A stretch of DNA of 49,592 nt from Gammaproteobacteria bacterium. Lineage in GTDB: Bacteria; Pseudomonadota; Gammaproteobacteria; UBA6429; Thiohalophilaceae. Shown in pieces: positions 17,473-30,574 of this stretch. The DNA lies in contig JAFLJQ010000072.1 in NCBI GenBank assembly GCA_022712915.1, forward strand, positions 1 through 49,592, written 5' to 3'. The notes beneath the pieces were generated by a model that made no database searches, had not been told where the DNA came from, and was given only the letters and a program-made list of their open reading frames with translations. The stretch's first letter is position 1. Every line of letters begins with the position of its first letter. A program made the position numbers and the translations under genes.

Positions 17473-19425
<1,953 letters not shown>

Positions 19426-19428
19426 TCA

Positions 19429-19520
19429 CTCGCCTTGCCTACGCCGGCATTATCCGGATCAGGTCATTTACTTAGGGTATGTCTCAGCCTGTTTTTCTTC
19501 AACAGGCACCCCCGGCGGTC
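19429..19520 (-). promoter_or_regulatory. TPP (thiamine pyrophosphate) riboswitch
   Basis: On the minus strand the conserved THI-box blocks appear in order: GGGGGTGCC (P1/P2), GGCTGAGA with TACCC, then ACCTGATCCGGATAATGCC and GGCGTAGG. This matches the known aptamer, which binds thiamine pyrophosphate and shuts down thiC. A variable stem-loop (CCTGTTGAAGAAAAACAGG) lies between the first two blocks. The aptamer ends about 70 bases before the favoured thiC start, so control is probably translational or by early termination. The leader also has nine consecutive C (plus strand G, 19410-19418). Confidence 0.95.
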
Positions 19521-19709
19521 GAGGCGTCAAGTTAATGGATAGGCCCTGTAAATGCAAGCTGACAAATATCCATTATATTTTGATGGGAAACTTTTTCAGG
19601 TCTTTCTGAGATGAGTCAATACAATACCCTTCCTACGACTTGCCTCCCCCCGCCAAACGGCTTAATCTTCGGGCACTGTAAATGGCGTGGCAGGATGAGG
19701 AAAACAATA
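19521..19709. other. Divergent promoter region between thiC and pcm
   Basis: About 190 bases separate the riboswitch from the plus-strand methyltransferase start. Promoters for both directions are expected here. I could not assign -35/-10 boxes with confidence. Confidence 0.3.
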
Positions 19710-20372
19710 ATGACCGAGATGAATTTTGAACAAGCCCGTTTCAATATGATTGAACAACAGATTCGCCCCTGGGATGTGATCGATCAACGTGTGCTGGATC
19801 TGCTAAGTGAAGTCCCACGAGAGGATTTTGTGCCGCCACAACACCATAATCTGGCCCTGGTCGATATGTTTTTGCCCATTGGTCACGAGCAGACCATGAT
19901 GAGCCCCAAACTGGAAGCCCGTATGTTACAGGCACTGGATATCCAGCCATTTGAAAACGTGCTTGAGGTCGGTACAGGCAGTGGTTATGTCACGGCCCTA
20001 TTGTCGAAACTGGCCAAACAGGTTTACAGCATTGAAATCATTCCTGAATTCATCAAGAGTGCTCAGACTAAACTGGCCGAACACCGCATCACCAATGTCA
20101 CTCTGGAAGAAGGCGATGCCGCTCAAGGCTGGCCATTAGATGCACCCTACGATGTCACCGTCATCACCGGCTCTTTACCCTTGCTGCCCGATGCCTTCAA
20201 ACAGTCCATGAATATCGGTGGCCGCCTGTTTGCTATTATTGGAGATTCACCCAGCAGGGAAGTCATGTTAATCACCCGCATCGGTGAATTTGAATGGATC
20301 AAGGAAGTACTGTTTGAGACCGACCTGCCTCCACTGAACAATGCCACTGAACCAGATCGCTTCGAATTTTAA
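19710..20372 (+). CDS. Protein-L-isoaspartate O-methyltransferase-like protein
   Basis: A 220-residue SAM-dependent methyltransferase of the PCMT family, with motif I VLEVGTGSGYV at 84-94 and the family context EQQIRPWDV, PREDFVP and IGHEQTMMSP. The family repairs isoaspartyl residues in damaged proteins. This branch, which sits next to tolC in gammaproteobacteria, is less well characterised, so activity is inferred. ATG 19710 (MTEMNFEQARFNM) follows GAGG by nine bases and is preferred over the open upstream ATG at 19611. The rhodanese gene follows after 30 bases, then tolC. Confidence 0.85.
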   Translation: MTEMNFEQARFNMIEQQIRPWDVIDQRVLDLLSEVPREDFVPPQHHNLALVDMFLPIGHEQTMMSPKLEARMLQALDIQPFENVLEVGTGSGYVTALLSKLAKQVYSIEIIPEFIKSAQTKLAEHRITNVTLEEGDAAQGWPLDAPYDVTVITGSLPLLPDAFKQSMNIGGRLFAIIGDSPSREVMLITRIGEFEWIKEVLFETDLPPLNNATEPDRFEF

Positions 20373-20402
20373 ATACCATCAGGGTAGCCCTGTATCCTGG
20401 CC

Positions 20403-20723
20403 ATGCGCCACTTCAGTCCACTGGATCTCAAACAGCACCTGGAAACAGTGGCAGAAATGCCACTACTGCTCGATGTACGGGAACCTTGGGAGTTCCAGTA
20501 TTGTCATATCGAGCATTCCAAACTGGTTCCCATGGGCCAGATCATGGATGTGATAGAGACACTGGATCCAGCGCGAGAAACCATTTTAATCTGCCACCAC
20601 GGTATTCGTAGCCGCCAGGTAGCCTACTATTTGGAACAACAGGACTTCAGTCAGATAATTAATCTTGAAGGTGGCGTTGAACAGTGGGCTCAGCAAATAG
20701 AACCAACCATGAAGAGGTATTAA
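20403..20723 (+). CDS. Single-domain rhodanese (sulfurtransferase)
   Basis: A 106-residue protein that is one rhodanese domain: LLLDVREPWEF near 22-31 and the active-site loop CHHGIRS with Cys64. The loop matches the GlpE/PspE-type length for sulfur rather than phosphate chemistry. It has no signal peptide, so it is probably cytoplasmic. It lies between pcm and tolC with an 8-base gap to tolC, implying one transcript. The physiological acceptor is unknown. Confidence 0.9.
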   Translation: MRHFSPLDLKQHLETVAEMPLLLDVREPWEFQYCHIEHSKLVPMGQIMDVIETLDPARETILICHHGIRSRQVAYYLEQQDFSQIINLEGGVEQWAQQIEPTMKRY

Positions 20724-20730
20724 TAAAAAT

Positions 20731-22056
20731 ATGCAAACATCATTTTCTTTTCTCAAGTTAGCAGGCACTGCCACCCTGCTACTGATCACCGGCAGTATCG
20801 CAGCCGAAGACCTGAATACCATTTATTCACTGGCGGAAATAAACGATCCCCAATTTCGTGCCGCCAGGGCACAGTATATGGCGGATAGCGAAGGCTCCTA
20901 TCAGGCCTGGGCCGCCGTCATGCCGCAAATCAGTGGCTCCATGCACAAGACGGACACCTCAAGCGAGGTGGTTAGAGATTCAGGCACAACAAATTTTGAC
21001 TACGATAGCGATGGCTACACTCTAAGCCTGAGTCAAACCATCTACAACCATGCCAAATTTGCCCAGATCAGCCAGGCCAGCGCCACCAGCGCCCAGGCCG
21101 AGGCCAAATTTCGCTATGCGGAGCAGGAACTCATCCTGCGTGCAGCAGAGCGCTATTTAGATGTACTGGCGGCACAGGACAATCTGGACTTCACCCGTGC
21201 AGAAAAAGAATCCATCGCCCACCAGCTCAAACAGACCCAACAACGCTTTAATGTTGGTCTAACCGCCATTACCGATGTACATGAAGCCCAGGCCCGTTAT
21301 GACCAGTCAGTCGCCCAGGATATCTCTGCCGAAAACAAGTTGGCCATCAACCGCGAAATACTACGCGAAATAACCAACAAAGATCATCCCCAGCTAAAGA
21401 GCCTACTGGAAACAACCCCGCTACTGGGACCTAACCCGGCAGATGTAACTGAATGGGTCAAATCCGCACTGATGAATAACTTTTTACTACTGGCCACAAA
21501 AGAAACAGTAGAGGCCTCTTATGCCGGTATCAGCAAGGCCAGGGCCGGCCATTACCCCAGCCTGGATATTGTGGCCAGCAAAAGCCTCAACGAGATCGGC
21601 GGTGGCTTTCAGGGTAAACGAGAACAGGAAGACACCACCATAGCACTGCAACTGAGTTTGTCGATTTTTAATGGCGGTGCCGTGATGTCTCAATCCCGGG
21701 AAGCCGCCTACCGCCATCAACAGAGCAAGGAAATTCTGGAACAGACTCGCCGCGCCACCGAGCGTCAGGCGCGCAACTCCTTTTTATCCGTATTGGCCAA
21801 TATTAGCCAGGTCAAAGCGCTAAAGCAGGCCCTGGCCTCAAGTGAGACCGCTCTCAAGGCCACCACCGCCGGTTTCAAGGTTGGAACCCGTACCACCGTC
21901 GACGTGCTTAATTCGCAACGAGATCTGTTCCGCGCCAAACTTAACTATGCCCTGGCCCGCTATGAATACATCAAGGAAACCCTGCGCCTGAAACAGGCGG
22001 CGGGCACACTGTCAAAACAGGATCTCAACGCGATTAATGACTGGCTAGGTAGCTAA
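20731..22056 (+). CDS. tolC: TolC-family outer membrane efflux channel
   Basis: A 441-residue outer-membrane protein with a signal peptide (hydrophobic stretch ending SIAAED near residue 26) and two OEP repeats rich in heptad-like helices. The first repeat starts LNTIYSLAEINDPQFRAARA, and the second ends VGTRTTVDVLNSQRDLFRAK. TolC trimers form the outer exit duct of type I secretion and multidrug pumps. The length is close to mature TolC and shorter than enterobacterial precursors. No pump partner is adjacent. The pcm-rhodanese-tolC-waaA order is typical of related gammaproteobacteria. Confidence 0.92.
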   Translation: MQTSFSFLKLAGTATLLLITGSIAAEDLNTIYSLAEINDPQFRAARAQYMADSEGSYQAWAAVMPQISGSMHKTDTSSEVVRDSGTTNFDYDSDGYTLSLSQTIYNHAKFAQISQASATSAQAEAKFRYAEQELILRAAERYLDVLAAQDNLDFTRAEKESIAHQLKQTQQRFNVGLTAITDVHEAQARYDQSVAQDISAENKLAINREILREITNKDHPQLKSLLETTPLLGPNPADVTEWVKSALMNNFLLLATKETVEASYAGISKARAGHYPSLDIVASKSLNEIGGGFQGKREQEDTTIALQLSLSIFNGGAVMSQSREAAYRHQQSKEILEQTRRATERQARNSFLSVLANISQVKALKQALASSETALKATTAGFKVGTRTTVDVLNSQRDLFRAKLNYALARYEYIKETLRLKQAAGTLSKQDLNAINDWLGS

Positions 22057-22074
22057 TAAGATTTAGGGGCCAAA

Positions 22075-22638
22075 ATGAAGATCCCTCCCCTACTATGTCA
22101 GGCCGATCAAACTGCCTTGCTGGTCATCGATATCCAGCAACGGCTGGCCAGCGCCATGCCAGACCAGGTGCTGCAATCGCTTATCAAGCACACAGGCATG
22201 TTATTAAAGGTCGCCAACCTGCTTGATATCCCGGTGATACAAACAGAACAATACCCCAAAGGATTAGGCCCTACCCTGGACGATATCCAGCAACATATCC
22301 GCCATGACCCGCTTCTGGAGAAAACCTGCTTTTCCTGTTGTGGTGCAGAAGGGTTTGAGCAAGCGCTAGAAAAAAGCGCGCGTAAACAAATTGTACTGAC
22401 CGGCATGGAGTCCCATGTCTGTGTGTTGCAAACGGCCATGGAGCTTAAGACAAAAGGTTATGAGGTTTTTGTGGTCAGTGATGCCATCTGTTCTCGAGAT
22501 AAACATCATCATAAAAACGCCCTGCAACGTATGCATCAAGCCGGTATTGTCATCAGTAACACGGAATCCGTGTTGTTTGAATGGTTGCGGGATGCCAAAC
22601 ACCCTCACTTCAAAACCATCTCACAATTTTTACGTTAA
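22075..22638 (+). CDS. Isochorismatase-family cysteine hydrolase
   Basis: A 187-residue cytoplasmic hydrolase of the YcaC/isochorismatase-like fold, with catalytic triad candidates Asp19 (LLVIDIQQR), Lys83 (LEKTCFSC) and Cys116 (ESHVCVLQTA). The substrate is not predictable. A Shine-Dalgarno AGGGG precedes the ATG by five bases. It lies 18 bases after tolC in the same direction, probably in the same operon. Confidence 0.9.
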   Translation: MKIPPLLCQADQTALLVIDIQQRLASAMPDQVLQSLIKHTGMLLKVANLLDIPVIQTEQYPKGLGPTLDDIQQHIRHDPLLEKTCFSCCGAEGFEQALEKSARKQIVLTGMESHVCVLQTAMELKTKGYEVFVVSDAICSRDKHHHKNALQRMHQAGIVISNTESVLFEWLRDAKHPHFKTISQFLR

Positions 22639-22695
22639 TCCCGCTTAAGATCAACAGGGATACCAACTCCCTACAGATTCTTCTATCATAAGCCC

Positions 22696-24897
22696 ATGGC
22701 CAATACCCCACCCCATTTTAATCCACGCGAATTTCTCCACCCAAAATACCTTCCAACCTGGATAGGTCTGGGCCTGTTGCGCATCATTGCAATGCTGCCT
22801 TACGGTGGGGTCCTCTTGCTGGGTAAACTCTTAGGCTGGTTTTCATTCTATCTTTTGCCCAGCCGCCGCCGCATCACTCGTACCAATATACGTTTATGTT
22901 TTCCTGAACGGAGTAAGAAAGAACAACAGCAACTGGTTAAACAAAATTTTTATGATGCCGCCATCGCCGTGCTGGAGTCGCCGCTGGCCTGGTGGGGCAG
23001 TGATAAAAAACTACAAGCCATTCACCAAGTAGAGGGACTAGAGCACCTGCAACAGGCCCAACAGGACGGCAAGGGCATTATTCTGTTGGGGGCTCATTAC
23101 ACGACACTGGAAATTGGGGGGCGCTTACTGGCCTATCACATCGACTGGTGCCCCACCTTCAAACGGGCCCACAATAAACTGTTCAATGCCGTAATGAAGA
23201 CCTCAAGACAGCGGGTGCATGGTCGATTACTGGCCAGCTCCGACATGCGTGGCATCATTAAATATCTCAAACAAAACGGTATTGTCTGGTTTGCCCCGGA
23301 TCAGGACTTCGGCCGACCCGGTAGTGTCTTCGCCCCCTTTATGAATGTCGCGACATCAACCCTGACCATGACCGCACGTCTGGCTAAAACCACGGGGGCA
23401 AAAATCCTGCCCATGTATTCTGAGCGCTTACCGGGGACAACAGGTTACCTGATACGCATTGGCCAACCCCTGAAAAATTTCCCTTCGGCAGATGAAGTAA
23501 AAGATGCCACAGCAATCAATCAGGCCATTGAAGATCAAGTGCGCCGTACACCGTCCCAATACCTGTGGGGTCACCGGCGTTTTAAAACCCGTCCCTTTGG
23601 TGAACCTCTAATTTATGCACCCCGTGCCGACAAATCTTTGCGCCTGTATAAACGGGTTATGCCTCTGTTATCTATGCCCATGATATTGCTTACCCTGTGG
23701 ATGGCCTTCAAGTGGCGAGACCGCCAATATCTGATACAACGCCTTGGGCTCGGATGTCCAAAACAAGCAACCGGCGGCGTTTGGCTGCATGCGGCATCCG
23801 TGGGGGAAGTTAATGCCATCATGCCTCTCATTGAACGCATCCATTGCCAATTTCCGACTTTGCCCATAACACTGACCACAGCCACGCCAAGTGGTGGTCA
23901 AACAGCACGTCATAAATTACCAACGGCTTGTGTACAACATTTTTTACCCCTTGACTGGGGCTGGGCAACACAAAAACTGATACGCCACTTGCGACCATCC
24001 TGCCTGCTGGTCATGGAAACAGAGATTTGGCCCAATCTTTACTGGAATTTTTATCGCCATAATATTCCACTCATTATCATCAATGGCCGACTCTCTGAGC
24101 GCACCCTGAATAATCGTTTTTATTGGCTAAGCCGACTCTATTTATTTATCGGCCAACTTATTCGCTTTGTACTGGCCAGGAGTGAAATCGATGCCAAACG
24201 CTTTGCCCGTTTAGGTGCCCATCCAGAATTGATTAAGGTCATGGGTAATATCAAATTTGCAGCAAACAAAACAGGCAAGGCAAGTGCCATTGAGCTTGCG
24301 CGCCCCTATATTCTGGCGGCCTCGACACGCGACGATGAAGAGTGGCGCATCGTCGAAGCCTGGCAGGCATCAGAGGCCCGTCAGACATTACTCGTCATCG
24401 TCCCCAGACATCCAGCTCGCCTTAAAAACATCCTTCAACAACTCAGATCTAAAATCGACACCATCGCCATACGCAGCAAAAATGAGTCCGTCACCGAAAA
24501 AACCCAGGTCTATATCGCAGACACCTTTGGTGAACTAAACCGATTTATAGCCGGTGCCGAGTTTGTCATCATGGGGGGATCATTTGTACCATTGGGAGGG
24601 CAAAATATTCTAGAATGTGCAAGGCAATCCCGTGCGGTCATTTTTGGGCCATACATGGACAACTTCAGTGATGAGGCGAATCTATTTCTTGAATATGGAG
24701 CAGGACTACAGGTCAAAGACACGACGGAATTAAGCGAAAAAATTAATCTATTGGCCAGTGATAAAAATAAATGTCAGCAGTTGAGCAACAATGGAAACCA
24801 TTTATTGGGACAATACAGCCACATCATTGACCACTATATGCAGGAGCTGGCCACCTTATGCCCCTGTTTCAAGAACTCATCACAGCCTGATAACTAG
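22696..24897 (+). CDS. Fused lipid A acyltransferase (LpxL-like) and KDO transferase (WaaA)
   Basis: A 733-residue two-enzyme polypeptide. Residues about 1-305 form a complete LpxL/HtrB-type late acyltransferase with an N-terminal membrane anchor, the catalytic HX4E motif (His134-Glu139) and the PDQDFG segment. Residues about 317-733 form a complete WaaA/KdtA, starting with its own hydrophobic anchor (MPLLSMPMILLTLWMAF) and carrying the acceptor-base motif ASVGEV (Glu371) and the GGSFVPLGGQNILE block. The frame is continuous through a short linker, and both halves have normal single-enzyme length. It would act at the cytoplasmic face of the inner membrane, joining two consecutive steps of Kdo2-lipid A assembly. 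The 3' end overlaps the convergent kdkA by 29 bases. Confidence 0.9.
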   Translation: MANTPPHFNPREFLHPKYLPTWIGLGLLRIIAMLPYGGVLLLGKLLGWFSFYLLPSRRRITRTNIRLCFPERSKKEQQQLVKQNFYDAAIAVLESPLAWWGSDKKLQAIHQVEGLEHLQQAQQDGKGIILLGAHYTTLEIGGRLLAYHIDWCPTFKRAHNKLFNAVMKTSRQRVHGRLLASSDMRGIIKYLKQNGIVWFAPDQDFGRPGSVFAPFMNVATSTLTMTARLAKTTGAKILPMYSERLPGTTGYLIRIGQPLKNFPSADEVKDATAINQAIEDQVRRTPSQYLWGHRRFKTRPFGEPLIYAPRADKSLRLYKRVMPLLSMPMILLTLWMAFKWRDRQYLIQRLGLGCPKQATGGVWLHAASVGEVNAIMPLIERIHCQFPTLPITLTTATPSGGQTARHKLPTACVQHFLPLDWGWATQKLIRHLRPSCLLVMETEIWPNLYWNFYRHNIPLIIINGRLSERTLNNRFYWLSRLYLFIGQLIRFVLARSEIDAKRFARLGAHPELIKVMGNIKFAANKTGKASAIELARPYILAASTRDDEEWRIVEAWQASEARQTLLVIVPRHPARLKNILQQLRSKIDTIAIRSKNESVTEKTQVYIADTFGELNRFIAGAEFVIMGGSFVPLGGQNILECARQSRAVIFGPYMDNFSDEANLFLEYGAGLQVKDTTELSEKINLLASDKNKCQQLSNNGNHLLGQYSHIIDHYMQELATLCPCFKNSSQPDN

Positions 24898-25594
24898 CCA
24901 ATAACTCCTGCCAGTTATTCTCGGCAAAATAAAATTCTTTGTAATGGCGCGTCAGCTTGGTCAAAGAATGATGCAAACGATTCAGGTTTGATTTCTGCCA
25001 TGGCCCGGCCGGACGTTGTTCGCCCCGATCAAAATCAATAAGAAAGACCGTTCCTTCATTATTAAGCATAATATTGTGTGCATTCAAATCAGCATGAAAA
25101 ATACCCGCCTGATGAAATTGCGCCAGGGTTGAACCCATCTCCTTCCAACAACGATCATCATAAGAACCACCCGACAGGCGTTGCGTCAAACTCAGGGCAT
25201 TGGGTATGCGTTGAGTAATAATGTCCGCCCCATACACAAAACCATGTTTGAAGACACGCGCAGCCACTGGTAAAGGCACAGGTAAGCCACTGTCATGCAT
25301 ACTTGCCAACAACCGCCACTCTCGCCAGGCTCGAGTACGCTCAAGGCCAAGCCACAAATAACGTTCTTCAATATAGCGGGCAATCAGACCACCGCGCCGA
25401 TAATGCCGCAAAACCCATTCTTGCCCATCCGCCTCAACAAACCAACTCGCCCCACGGCCTTGTGCCGTCTGGGTTACCTGATGCATAGCAAGCCAATAAT
25501 CAGGCGTAAATTGCTCTATCCTTATATCTTGAGAAACAGCCGGGTTATACAACACAAAATGACTGTCCGCATGATATGTTTTAGCTTCGATCAA
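24869..25594 (-). CDS. kdkA: 3-deoxy-D-manno-octulosonic acid (KDO) kinase
   Basis: A 241-residue protein-kinase-fold enzyme that phosphorylates KDO of the LPS inner core at the membrane. Key residues are catalytic Asp169 and Asn174 in HADLNAHN, and Asp187 in LIDFDRG. LRHYRRGGL and GRGASWF match the Haemophilus KdkA pattern. The start is a TTG, supported by GAGGAA six bases upstream. The end overlaps waaA on the other strand. KDO kinases usually accompany single-KDO lipid A species; here that is inference. Confidence 0.93.
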   Translation of the reverse strand: MIEAKTYHADSHFVLYNPAVSQDIRIEQFTPDYWLAMHQVTQTAQGRGASWFVEADGQEWVLRHYRRGGLIARYIEERYLWLGLERTRAWREWRLLASMHDSGLPVPLPVAARVFKHGFVYGADIITQRIPNALSLTQRLSGGSYDDRCWKEMGSTLAQFHQAGIFHADLNAHNIMLNNEGTVFLIDFDRGEQRPAGPWQKSNLNRLHHSLTKLTRHYKEFYFAENNWQELLASYQAVMSS

Positions 25595-25615
25595 TGTCTA
25601 TTCCTCAATTTTCTT

Positions 25616-26461
25616 TTAATCAATTTTTTGCGCTATCACAAAAAAGGCCACGCCTGCCGACAATTTTTCCTTTACATTCTGCCTCAGAAATTTGATAAAA
25701 ATATTTTGGTAGGGCTTGGGCTTTGAAGCATTACTTTTATAAACAAGCTTAAATCCACTCATTTGCAGAAGCTTGCTAAGGGAGGCAGGATTGTAATAAA
25801 AGATATGATGCTCACTATCATAATAGCGGCCAATCTTGTTTTTCTTCAGCCCCAATTTTTCCAGTAAAAATTTTATCCTTGAGCCCCAGGCTGAAATATT
25901 CGGCACGCCAATATACAAATAACCTTCTTCATTCATAATTGAATGAAAGCTTTTCAGTCTGGCTAGAGGGTCTTTGAGATGTTCCATAACGTGATGGGCA
26001 TAAATTAAATCGAATTTCTTATCTCCCCAATCCAACTTATCAAAATCACCACAACGTACATCCATATTCATTTTTTTTGCCAGCTCTTCCGTAGTGGCAC
26101 AATCCACATCATAACCACTCACTTGCCATCCCAGGTCTCGGGCATGTAAGGCATAAGTGCCATTACCTAAACCAAAATCCAGCATTTCGCCCTGATCAGG
26201 CATGAAACGATGGATGGCCTTAAAATTTTGCTGACACACCTCATGCTGTTCATCGAGGGTCTTCTGTGTGTATTCGGGCGTGATATAACCTGCGTAATAG
26301 TCTGTCAAATAGGCATCAGAATAGACCGGATTCATGAACTGCACACCACACTGGTCACACTTGTCGATATCATTTTCTCGATAATCTGCATGATAATGGT
26401 GAATACTCACCGAACGACAGACAGGGCAAATCTCGTACTTCTTATCAAACTTTCCCGGCAT
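25616..26461 (-). CDS. Zinc-ribbon class I SAM methyltransferase
   Basis: A 281-residue protein. An N-terminal zinc ribbon (CPVC...CDQC, residues about 12-38) is followed by a Rossmann methyltransferase with motif I MLDFGLGNGTYAL and IYAHHVMEHLKDP. Such proteins act on sugars or metabolites in surface-polysaccharide loci. ATG 26461 (MPGKFDKKYEICPVC) is preferred over the open ATG at 26527 because it follows AGAGGG and begins just before the zinc ribbon. It has a paralogue-like neighbour at 29753. The substrate is unknown. Confidence 0.85.
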   Translation of the reverse strand: MPGKFDKKYEICPVCRSVSIHHYHADYRENDIDKCDQCGVQFMNPVYSDAYLTDYYAGYITPEYTQKTLDEQHEVCQQNFKAIHRFMPDQGEMLDFGLGNGTYALHARDLGWQVSGYDVDCATTEELAKKMNMDVRCGDFDKLDWGDKKFDLIYAHHVMEHLKDPLARLKSFHSIMNEEGYLYIGVPNISAWGSRIKFLLEKLGLKKNKIGRYYDSEHHIFYYNPASLSKLLQMSGFKLVYKSNASKPKPYQNIFIKFLRQNVKEKLSAGVAFFVIAQKID

Positions 26462-26622
26462 TATAATAAAACCCTCTGAACAACTCGCAAAATATAACCA
26501 AACCTCGTATAGAAAACCAGTCAACACACAGCTAATCTGGCAAGCTTTAATCAGTAAGAAAATATAGTAGAATATTGAGATAACGTCACTACTGCCAGCA
26601 CAGCATAAATTATGCTTATCTC

Positions 26623-27696
26623 ATGAATGAAACCATAAAAAACCCAGCCAACATGATAAATTCCGGCACACTTAAAAATATTTGCCTGCTAAGACTCTCC
26701 GCCGTGGGTGATATTTGTCATACCTTGCCCATTGTCCGTACCTTACAAGCACACTTACCTGAGGTTCAAATTACCTGGATTATTGGCAAAACAGAGTATG
26801 GCCTAGTATATGACATTCCCGGTATCGAATTTATTGTTTTTGATAAATCCAAAGGTCTGGCAGCCTATCTAAATGTTAAACGATGCACCAAGGGGCAGCA
26901 CTTTGATATTTTACTCCACATGCAGATGTCGCTGCGCGCCAGTGCCCTTAGCCTGTTGATCCCGGCCGCCATCAAACTCGGTTTTGACAAACAACGGGCC
27001 AAGGACATGCAATGGCTGTTCACCCATCAGAAAATTGCCTATCAGGCCAAGCAACATGTGATTGACAGCTTGTTTGGTTTTAGTGAAGCCCTGGGGATAG
27101 AACAACACCTGTACCAATGGAATATACCCATACCGGATGAGGCAAGAGTCTTTGCACAACAAACTACTCACCACAAACCCATCCTTGTCATCAGCCCCTG
27201 CTCCAGCATGGCCTATCGTAACTGGTCCGTGGCCGGTTATGCTGCCGTGGCAGACTATGCCATTAAAAAATACAATATGCAGATCATGCTCACCGGTGGG
27301 CCGAGTGAGATAGAAAAACAGTATGGTCATGATATTACTCAAGCCATGAAATACCCCGCAACAAACCTGATCGGGCAAACCAGTTTAAAGCAGCTATTGG
27401 CTATCCTGGATCAGGCCCAGGTGGTTATTGCCCCCGATGCCGGGCCGGCCCACATGGCCACGGCCGTTAATACACCGGTCATCGGCCTATATGCCACCAC
27501 CAATCCGGATCGTGCCCGTCCCTATCTGAGTGCCGACTATACCGTCAATCATTATCCCGCAGCGGTGCAGGACAAATATGGCAAGACGGTAACTGAAATG
27601 CCCTGGGGTACACGGGTACGAGATGAAGGCACCATGGATCGCATCACCATTGGAGATGTAACCACTATGCTCGATAAAATAATGGCCGCCCGTTAA
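26623..27696 (+). CDS. LPS heptosyltransferase, family GT9 (WaaC-like)
   Basis: A 357-residue GT-B glycosyltransferase with an N-terminal ICLLRLSAVGDICHTLPIVR signature and the nucleotide-sugar site APDAGPAHMATA. It probably adds the first L-glycero-D-manno-heptose to KDO (WaaC type), judging from the RLSAVGD start and the absence of another waaC. It is peripheral at the inner membrane. It faces the previous gene divergently and overlaps the next, convergent GT9 by four bases at its end. Confidence 0.85.
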   Translation: MNETIKNPANMINSGTLKNICLLRLSAVGDICHTLPIVRTLQAHLPEVQITWIIGKTEYGLVYDIPGIEFIVFDKSKGLAAYLNVKRCTKGQHFDILLHMQMSLRASALSLLIPAAIKLGFDKQRAKDMQWLFTHQKIAYQAKQHVIDSLFGFSEALGIEQHLYQWNIPIPDEARVFAQQTTHHKPILVISPCSSMAYRNWSVAGYAAVADYAIKKYNMQIMLTGGPSEIEKQYGHDITQAMKYPATNLIGQTSLKQLLAILDQAQVVIAPDAGPAHMATAVNTPVIGLYATTNPDRARPYLSADYTVNHYPAAVQDKYGKTVTEMPWGTRVRDEGTMDRITIGDVTTMLDKIMAAR

Positions 27697-28682
27697 GGCA
27701 AAAATGTTTTACACGCCTCAAACACTTTCTCCGCAGAAATCGCTGCCAGACCTAATTCCGGCTGAGCCATCTCTTCAGCACAAAGCACCTTGAACTGGCT
27801 ATCCGGTACATACGGCCCACAATCACGTGGATCATGCCCCGCAAACAAAGCAAGTAGGTTGGTACCCACCGCTGCGGCAATATGCATTGGCCCCGTATCT
27901 GGTGAGATCAACAGGTTCATTCTCTGCAACAAAGCCTTGTAACGTTCAAAATTGAGCGGTGGAATAAACATAATCACCCGCCCGTTACTCAAACAGACAA
28001 TCCTTTCTCCTAATTGTCGGTCTTCCGGCATCAGATCCATAATTATAAATATTCTTTTAGATTTCGCTTCAGCATAGTCAGCAAACATGCTGGCCAATTC
28101 TGCAAAGTGATCTGCTGGCCACCCCTTCTCACTTCGAGTATTCCGATAGCCAAATGATAACTTGCGTAGGGCACTAAAGCTTGGATGCAGGCCAATGACA
28201 AAATCATCATTGTTAATATCATGTTGCTGGAGTTGCTCACGAGCTAACTGCATACCTTGTTTTGTAACAGGCAGGGTTAACCAACGATCATTTAATTCAT
28301 CACCCTGACAGACCATTTTAAGGCAGCGACGAGCATAATTTGTGGTTGAGTTTTCCTCAGTGATCCGATTAATTGATATAGTCTGTTGTTCAACTAATTC
28401 TAAAAAACTGCTTTTGAGTTCGAAACAGAAAACCTTATCGTAAACCGCTTTATTGATTTCCTTTTTTACCCTGCCTCGTTCCAGCAACCCCTTTATACCC
28501 TTGCGCTGGTAAATAATCAGTTGCGTCAACCGTTCATGAAATCCATTCAGCACACGCTTGCCGTCAGGACTGGTCAGGACATGCAACTCAGCCTCTGGCC
28601 ATTTATCCAGTATGGCCTTCAGCGCAGCCGTTACCATAACAATGTCCCCAGCACGCCCTACACGGATAGCCAGAATTTTCAT
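27693..28682 (-). CDS. Glycosyltransferase family 9 (heptosyltransferase-like)
   Basis: A 329-residue GT9 protein with MKILAIRVGRAGDIVMVTAA at the start and SPDTGPMHIAAA at the sugar-nucleotide site. The start is well defined by AAGGAGGTGAT immediately before the ATG. It probably transfers heptose or a related sugar to the LPS core; the acceptor is unknown. It runs in the same direction as the next two upstream genes. Confidence 0.85.
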   Translation of the reverse strand: MKILAIRVGRAGDIVMVTAALKAILDKWPEAELHVLTSPDGKRVLNGFHERLTQLIIYQRKGIKGLLERGRVKKEINKAVYDKVFCFELKSSFLELVEQQTISINRITEENSTTNYARRCLKMVCQGDELNDRWLTLPVTKQGMQLAREQLQQHDINNDDFVIGLHPSFSALRKLSFGYRNTRSEKGWPADHFAELASMFADYAEAKSKRIFIIMDLMPEDRQLGERIVCLSNGRVIMFIPPLNFERYKALLQRMNLLISPDTGPMHIAAAVGTNLLALFAGHDPRDCGPYVPDSQFKVLCAEEMAQPELGLAAISAEKVFEACKTFLP

Positions 28683-28718
28683 ATCACCTCCTTAGCATTT
28701 AACATTGCATTGCCGCAC

Positions 28719-29740
28719 TTAATCAAGCAAGGCCTGCATTGCCTGGCTGACCATATCTACCGAAGGGGGCATTCCATCGTGGCTCAATACAATATTGTGT
28801 GGCCCATAACGCGGCAAGTAACGAAATGGCAAGCAGATAAACTGTTCTGAAACGAAGAAAATGCCGACACTGGCGACACCGGCCGCAATGGATAAATGTC
28901 GAATACCCGTGTCATTAGACACCACCAGGCAGGCACCTTTAATCAGGGCAATGGTTTTATCCAGAGAATCAATATTCACCAGACCCTCAACATTTTTCTG
29001 CATATGATTGTAGGCCAATATCTCATCAATAGACTCCCACTCTTCCTTGCCTTTCAGCACAAAATGATCGAAGCCCTCATACTTACTGGCATTTTTTTGG
29101 ATCAACTCGGCAAATCGATCCACTGGCCAGCACTTTATCAGGGTTGAGGTACTGGTGAAATAAACAATATAAGGCCGTTCAGCTTTTTTTATTTCACCCG
29201 GCAAATCAAACAGTGGTGGATAAGTCGTAGCAAAACCAAACAGGTTTAACATCTCCAGTAAACAATCGGTTTCAAAATTTAAATCAGAACGAAACACCGT
29301 CACATCATAAAAAAGCTTACGTTGCAAACGATGATAAGGAAAACCCACCCGAATAGCCGAACGGTGCAACCAACAGATCCAAAAAGAGCGATGAGTGGCG
29401 GCTAAATCAAAAATGATATCCTGCTCACCCAGTTCTTTGGCCTTTTTTATTTGCTCTCGAACGGAAACATCCTTGCGATCCTTGCCATAGGCAATATGCA
29501 CACTATCCACTAAGTCTTCCGGTGTACCACGCGTATAGTTACTAACAATACTGAGCGTAATGTGGGCATTTGGAAAACAACGCCGCACTCTTCCTTCAGG
29601 AAAGGGCGCGTTAAGATCATGTCACCGAGTGCAGCATGACGTATGACGGCAACCTTACGCACTGCCTCAGGTTTAAGTGATTCGGCTCGCTGAATAGCCT
29701 TTGGTGAGGCCCATGCACCATTTCCAAACCAAAGTTTCAT
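28719..29740 (-). pseudogene. Family GT9 glycosyltransferase split by a frameshift
   Basis: The first frame (29740 down to 29510) begins MKLWFGNGAWASPKAIQRAE and reaches RHAALGDMILTRPFLKE. The homologous reading then continues in another frame as VRRCFPNAHITLSIV to a stop at 28719, including SNDTGIRHLSIA. The shift occurs in the AAGGAAGAG run near 29590-29597; gaining one base or losing two would restore a single protein of about 340 residues. The rest is uninterrupted and the SD-like CAGGT precedes the ATG. It may be a recent pseudogene, a sequencing error or, less likely, programmed frameshifting. Confidence 0.8.
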
Positions 29741-29752
29741 AAATTACCTGTA

Positions 29753-30553
29753 TTATTTTTTTAATACCGCAACAAAATTCCCATCGGCTTCTTCAAAGGC
29801 ATCATGTATGGTCACTTCACTAAAACCAGCCTGTTTGGCAAAATCAATAAAATTTTTCCCTCCAAACAAATGCAAATGCTCCAGAGGTTTTAAAGCTCCC
29901 CAGTTACAAACTAATGTTTTTGCCTGATCACAATCAACATCCGGGGTCTGGATCACAAAGACACCATCCTCTTTGAGAACGCGATGAACTTCCTTTAAAT
30001 CTGCCAGGGGATCCTCAAAGTGCTCAACCACATCAATGGCCGTAATCAAGTCAAAAAAACCGGCATTAAAACGCTGTGCCACATCACAAAATTTATCACT
30101 GTAAACCTGCTCACGGTATTTTGGATAGGTGTTACAAAAAGGTCTAACCAGAACCGTAACCAGCTCAACACCATAGACATCAAAATTTTCCTCAATACCG
30201 GCTGCCAGTAAAAAACCCTTGTTACAACCAATATCAAGATATGTTTTTGTCTGCCCTGTATGAATGTATTGCTTGGCAAACGTAAAAATACCACGAGCCC
30301 GTTGCATAAAATGAGCATAGCCTTTAATGCTGCGCATTTTTCGAAAAGGTGCAAATAATCTACGTCGCAGAGATTTAAGCCCCCCCCCTGTATAGGCTTT
30401 ATACATGTCGTCATTATTTGCAAAATTATCAACATAGATCAGACCACAGGAATGACAGCAAACATATTCCAGTTTATCAAAACTGCAATAGTGAGAAACC
30501 GGCTTTTGCTCGTGACAGATAATACAAGGGCGGGTAGCTTGATATTGGCTCAT
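29753..30553 (-). CDS. Zinc-ribbon class I SAM methyltransferase
   Basis: A 266-residue protein with N-terminal zinc-ribbon cysteines (CIICHE...CCHSCGLIY), methyltransferase motif I YLDIGCNKGFLL and ITAIDVVEHFEDPL, and HLHLFGGKNF near the end. ATG 30553 (MSQYQATRPC) is chosen; the TTG at 30568 is an alternative. Together with the 25616 gene it gives the locus two related methyltransferases, probably for sugar methylation of LPS or capsule. The substrate is unknown. Confidence 0.82.
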   Translation of the reverse strand: MSQYQATRPCIICHEQKPVSHYCSFDKLEYVCCHSCGLIYVDNFANNDDMYKAYTGGGLKSLRRRLFAPFRKMRSIKGYAHFMQRARGIFTFAKQYIHTGQTKTYLDIGCNKGFLLAAGIEENFDVYGVELVTVLVRPFCNTYPKYREQVYSDKFCDVAQRFNAGFFDLITAIDVVEHFEDPLADLKEVHRVLKEDGVFVIQTPDVDCDQAKTLVCNWGALKPLEHLHLFGGKNFIDFAKQAGFSEVTIHDAFEEADGNFVAVLKK

Positions 30554-30574
30554 GATGGGTATCGTCAATGTTAT

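Follow-up and report, generated by a model that had tools for sequence, protein, structure and literature searches.

A single gene in the 49,592-nucleotide stretch of DNA analyzed here (the window) joins a late lipid A acyltransferase of the LpxL type to the Kdo transferase WaaA. Its product is probably a bifunctional inner-membrane enzyme, with the WaaA half adding Kdo and the LpxL half acylating, that traces back to one likely fusion event. In model bacteria, these two late endotoxin steps reside on separate genes; here, two consecutive steps are physically linked. Both halves are known enzymes; the novelty lies in their pairing, in the conservation of that pairing across the family, and in an origin that can be traced. 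The open literature searched contained no description of an LpxL-WaaA fusion.

Two enzymes in one polypeptide

On inspection, the ORF (Table 1) runs from ATG to TAG with no internal stops. A Pfam search of the 733-aa protein recovered Lip_A_acyltrans at residues 11-298 (E 1.8e-69) and Glycos_transf_N (Kdo transferase) at residues 348-522 (E 1.7e-52), and PF04413 scored 178 bits on the fusion relative to a gathering score of 23.9, which places the protein within WaaA by the Pfam standard. The NCBIfam model TIGR02207, for the LpxL/LpxP subfamily, exceeds its cut-off at residues 11-307, and gives 311.7 bits on the N-terminal half alone vs. a cut-off of 297.8. The NCBIfam WaaA models span residues 317-720, nearly their full length, yet score below the strict equivalog cut-offs; NF004388, for example, reaches 305 bits on the WaaA half vs. 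a cut-off of 438 in a near full-length alignment, and the strict WaaA equivalog cut-off was passed by none of five lineage-like WaaA models. A reading made from the sequence alone (hereafter, the sequence-only reading) had proposed that full-length LpxL-type and WaaA-type enzymes are fused in frame, and the single ORF and its Pfam and NCBIfam domains bear this out.

Table 1. Features of the fusion gene and its neighborhood in the window.
Feature	Position	Strand	Basis or remark
tolC-like outer membrane efflux protein, upstream	20731..22056	+	Pfam OEP; conserved synteny
Isochorismatase-family hydrolase, immediately upstream	22075..22638	+	Pfam Isochorismatase; synteny
lpxL-waaA fusion gene, 733 aa	22696..24897	+	Single ORF; two complete domains; 24 genomes
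LpxL-type late acyltransferase half, residues ~8-309	22717..23622	+	TIGR02207; LpxM 5kn7 fold match
HX4E catalytic dyad, His134-Glu139	23095..23112	+	Spacing matches E. coli H132/E137
Fusion junction/linker, residues 307-318 (YAPRADKSLRLY)	23614..23649	+	Alignments; pLDDT about 85-94
WaaA N-terminal membrane-associating helix, residues 313-339	23632..23712	+	Continuous helix in model
WaaA Kdo transferase half, residues ~314-721	23635..24858	+	NF004388; Aquifex WaaA 2xci fold match
WaaA catalytic base Glu371 (= Aquifex Glu31)	23806..23808	+	Alignment to 2xci
kdkA, Kdo kinase	24869..25594	-	NF002475 282 bits vs. cut-off 142
Heptosyltransferase-family (GT9) gene, past kdkA and a methyltransferase gene	26623..27696	+	Pfam Glyco_transf_9; synteny

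The active sites of both halves are intact, with the HX4E motif (residues 134-139) and Glu371 lying exactly where they had been placed beforehand. E. coli LpxL works through H132/E137, R169, and D200 (PMC6286764), and H134, E139, R171, and D202 of the fusion reproduce that spacing. In the WaaA half, G30, E31, E98, K162, R212, N273, and E276 of the Aquifex enzyme correspond to G370, E371, E441, K520, R571, N637, and E640, such that equivalents of the catalytic Glu31, Glu98, and Lys162 and of the CMP-binding Arg212, Asn273, and Glu276 are all present. Among the 23 fused proteins compared, S368, G370, E371, E441, W445, K520, R571, N637, and E640 are invariant. In an AlphaFold2 model of the fusion (pLDDT 92.3, pTM 0.85), the top structural match of the LpxL half is Acinetobacter LpxM 5kn7 (Z 27.9, rmsd 2.5, 255 residues aligned), and that of the WaaA half is Aquifex aeolicus WaaA 2xci (Z 33.9, rmsd 5.5, 349 residues aligned), a best match that identifies the GT-B fold of WaaA.

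Compared with LpxL/LpxP (HtrB), therefore, the protein shares the full domain, the HX4E dyad, Arg and Asp at the E. coli spacing, and a TIGR02207 score above cut-off, but continues into WaaA at the C terminus, where LpxL ends. It resembles WaaA (KdtA), e.g., that of A. aeolicus (2XCI), in its GT-B fold and all of the catalytic and CMP-binding residues tested, and differs, apart from its scores below the strict equivalog cut-offs, in having no free N terminus; the membrane helix instead follows another catalytic domain.

It is very unlikely that only the WaaA half is needed, the acyltransferase half decaying or acting as a structural membrane anchor while an enzyme encoded on contig C261 acylates. 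That contig does carry a second full-length LpxL/LpxM-type gene in the source genome, and one fused homologue has HX4L in place of the dyad. However, mean pairwise identity is greater for the LpxL half than for the WaaA half (54% vs. 47%), which indicates that the former is not decaying; its H, R, and D are invariant, with E or D at the dyad in 22 of 23 fused proteins, and the C261 enzyme has its best scores to LpxM-type models. The sequence-only reading had named a separate lpxL and waaA elsewhere, together with an inactive fused copy, as a finding that would count against it. No separate waaA was found in the 97.8%-complete source genome, where the fusion is the sole WaaA, and the extra acyltransferase is the LpxM-like one. 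G000 also encodes, on contig C245:5399-5962 (L003), a 365-aa protein that belongs distantly to the lipid A acyltransferase superfamily and weakly resembles phosphatidylinositol mannoside acyltransferase.

In the LpxL proteins L109 (G005), L023, L024, L027, and L029, Leu or Ile stands where HX4E/D has its catalytic Glu/Asp; the G005 protein is the fused homologue with HX4L, and HX4L or HX4I is also present in several split homologues. The E137A change in the E. coli enzyme carries an activity cost of ~3000-fold (PMC6286764). Judged from these residues, either the dyad has been rearranged in HX4L/I copies or the copies are weak, and the acyltransferase half may therefore be weakened in some lineages.

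Distribution and origin of the fusion

Forty genomes of the source’s order were surveyed, all from one GTDB family that includes Thiohalophilus thiocyanatoxydans. ORF inspection and the match table place the fusion, as a single ORF across the junction, in 24 genomes of 16 genera, the source genome included, with protein identities of 44-66% between the source fusion and the others. In genera g14 and g15 (11 genomes), lpxL and waaA are split, while G002, G023, G040, G046, and G051, incomplete or unclear genomes, were left undecided. The source is a draft assembly of 274 contigs, and an assembly or sequencing artefact, under which a stop or frameshift would separate the domains, might be suspected. 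Its chance is negligible; the in-frame fusion, with the same domain order, recurs in the 24 genomes and 16 genera, among them T. thiocyanatoxydans DSM 16326 (L015), and an assembly error is thereby ruled out.

Several apparent fusions were rejected. Long WaaA frames of 592-855 aa in other families (G296, G391, G185, G304, G251, G128, G340, and G311) are high-GC open frames (GC 0.67-0.77) with no fused LpxL domain, and not independent fusions. A seeming fusion at model positions 4-714 in G125, from another order, resolves into two tandem genes with an intervening TAA, and that of G015 is a split pair. Loci L020 and L023-L028, each returned as one long match in the related-loci search, likewise proved split on ORF inspection. 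No further fusion was found among the matches listed in a phylum sample of 120 genomes; beyond those matches, a rare independent fusion outside the family is possible.

The split genes of relatives point to how the fusion arose. In genus g14, the waaA ATG lies 2-5 bases past the lpxL stop, in or out of frame, as in the G015 junction, TTATAAATTATG. Same-strand lpxL and waaA genes also stand in tandem in Thiohalomonas denitrificans (L025, L028), whose genus belongs to the same family, and at L020, L023, L024, L026, L027, and L031, as well as in a separate order, f87 (G125, G248, G508, and G509; L145-L152), where the G248 and G509 junctions are TAATG stop-start overlaps. Overlaps of this type are typical of translational coupling. 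The pairs of Thiohalomonas, g14, and f87 match the fusion in gene order and strand, and those of Thiohalomonas and g14 in their neighbors as well, but they comprise two genes whose ends overlap or almost meet. The occurrence of such pairs in a second gammaproteobacterial order suggests that lpxL/waaA coupling is older and more widespread than the fusion itself. Among families farther removed, lpxL and waaA are frequently neighbors but divergent or convergent. In genus g15, they are no longer adjacent: waaA has kept its place between tolC and kdkA, and lpxL is on a different contig.

A tree was built from the two halves jointly (710 columns, 45 rows, 23 fused proteins). All of the fused proteins group in a single clade (UFBoot 86, SH-aLRT 95) with the tandem lineages outside it, so the fusion most likely happened once. 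Support for a single event is moderate, in that 85% of bootstrap trees have one fused/split change; the one fused clade was unchanged when the order f87 sequences were added. The simplest history, and the most likely one, leads from adjacency to a coupled operon and then to one fusion in the family of Thiohalophilus. The alternative, an older fusion that was undone in the g14/g15 line, is possible but less parsimonious, because tandem genes also sit on deeper branches. The sequence-only reading took separate genes to be the rule, and this holds overall; in relatives, however, lpxL and waaA commonly stand in tandem with their ends almost in contact, and such pairs are the likely precursor. Since relatives keep this likely intermediate, the steps that led to the fusion can be followed.

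The main rival to a cooperating enzyme is a neutral fusion, in which the stop between coupled genes was lost and the enzymes stayed unchanged, bifunctional but free of kinetic coupling or channeling. It has a little short of an even chance and differs from the preferred explanation only on whether tethering matters. The precursor, with its overlapping or nearly touching ends, is such that few mutations could have joined lpxL and waaA, and close relatives live with split genes, those of g15 on different contigs. On the other hand, the frame is continuous and the linker nearly constant in length across 16 genera despite 44-66% identity, and the best tree needs no reversion to split genes within the fused clade. 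A comparable case is the LpxC-FabZ fusion of Bacteroidetes, Chlorobi, and Verrucomicrobia, in which neighboring genes of lipid A and fatty acid synthesis are also fused (PMC3087551); the enzymes are different, however, and LpxL and WaaA act consecutively on the same glycolipid at the membrane.

The Kdo kinase gene, its neighborhood, and the proposed function

The fusion was expected to form a tight module with the Kdo kinase gene overlapping its end. The gene and its overlap are real: kdkA is the only copy above the NF002475 cut-off in the source genome, it shares a 29-bp 3′ overlap with the fusion, and its side and orientation are the same in relatives. It lies on the opposite strand, however, and the two genes converge; a shared transcript is therefore unsupported, and kdkA is a neighbor only. 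A scan for promoters and terminators gave nothing usable above chance. The Kdo-phosphate inner core that had also been proposed is likely, given that a Kdo kinase gene adjoins the fusion.

The conserved gene order, seen at 17473-27696 of the window and at L015-L028, is thiC (minus strand), pcm, rhodanese, tolC, isochorismatase, lpxL-waaA, kdkA (minus strand), and heptosyltransferase; pcm and the tolC-like gene lie upstream of lpxL even in the outgroups L029 and L032. Beyond kdkA, at 25616-30568, three heptosyltransferase-like genes on both strands are interspersed with two Methyltransf_23 genes. The former score below the cut-offs for heptosyltransferases I, II, and III, and core assembly may therefore be unusual.

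What follows for the source organism is inference, covering the two activities, how many Kdo residues are added, the order of the reactions, and any channeling. The C-terminal WaaA half would transfer Kdo to lipid IVA, a single Kdo probably being added and then phosphorylated by the neighboring KdkA. The N-terminal LpxL half would next add the Kdo-dependent secondary acyl chain. Tethering would fix a 1:1 ratio of the two enzymes and could hold the Kdo-lipid product close to where the next reaction takes place. That WaaA should act just before LpxL follows from the ~6000-fold selectivity of E. coli LpxL for Kdo-bearing substrate and from the acceptance by WaaA of lipid A precursors with 3-6 acyl chains (PMC6286764). 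The adjoining kdkA, above its NF002475 cut-off, is a likeness to systems that pair a monofunctional WaaA with KdkA, and suggests that one Kdo is added and subsequently phosphorylated. This is the arrangement in Haemophilus influenzae, where KdkA partners a monofunctional WaaA (PMC12856342 and its reference 20). Channeling between the halves is plausible, although the domains, with LpxL at the N terminus, run opposite to the sequence of reactions, an arrangement that offers no argument for it. Should the halves cooperate, the fusion would be a ready-made, single-chain system for studying hand-over of the Kdo-lipid intermediate.

The junction and its seating on the membrane

The junction aligns without gaps in a 9-member alignment and is nearly constant in length in the remaining fused proteins, with the consensus HRRFKTRPxGEPxxY-xPRRDKxLRRY-SxLLxLLxLPAxxYTxW. 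This region bears on whether the ORF is expressed as two separate proteins, either from an internal start or by cleavage close to the junction, much like the ancestral operon. Relatives do have the operon, and the source gene has in-frame ATGs where the WaaA helix starts; nonetheless, the idea is unlikely. A conserved internal start for WaaA is rejected, as no start-codon position is shared by the 24 fused genes; three of them have no ATG, GTG, or TTG in the WaaA start region at all, the only candidate with a Shine-Dalgarno-like sequence upstream is a TTG in one relative, and the linker is well ordered in the AlphaFold2 model.

Both catalytic domains draw on cytoplasmic substrates, acyl-ACP and CMP-Kdo, and the fusion joins them via the WaaA membrane helix, thereby constraining how WaaA is seated on the membrane. 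Hydrophobicity at the junction is confined to a single stretch of ~18 residues (peak centre 329-330). With one such stretch between two cytoplasm-facing domains, the helix cannot simply span the membrane, since a single crossing would leave the WaaA domain on the periplasmic side. Each half had been credited with its own membrane anchor; the WaaA helix is indeed hydrophobic, but one stretch between the domains does not allow two independent spanning anchors in the same orientation. As judged from sequence, the WaaA helix in the fusion should lie in the plane of the inner leaflet or dip into it. A bolder view, possible but doubtful, holds that the fusion is a true channeling bienzyme of the membrane surface and a natural topology experiment, the WaaA helix being non-spanning in WaaA generally. 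A similar sequence (Y-x-LL-x-LP-x-YT-x-W) starts the stand-alone WaaA proteins of relatives, and the topology point may therefore apply more widely.
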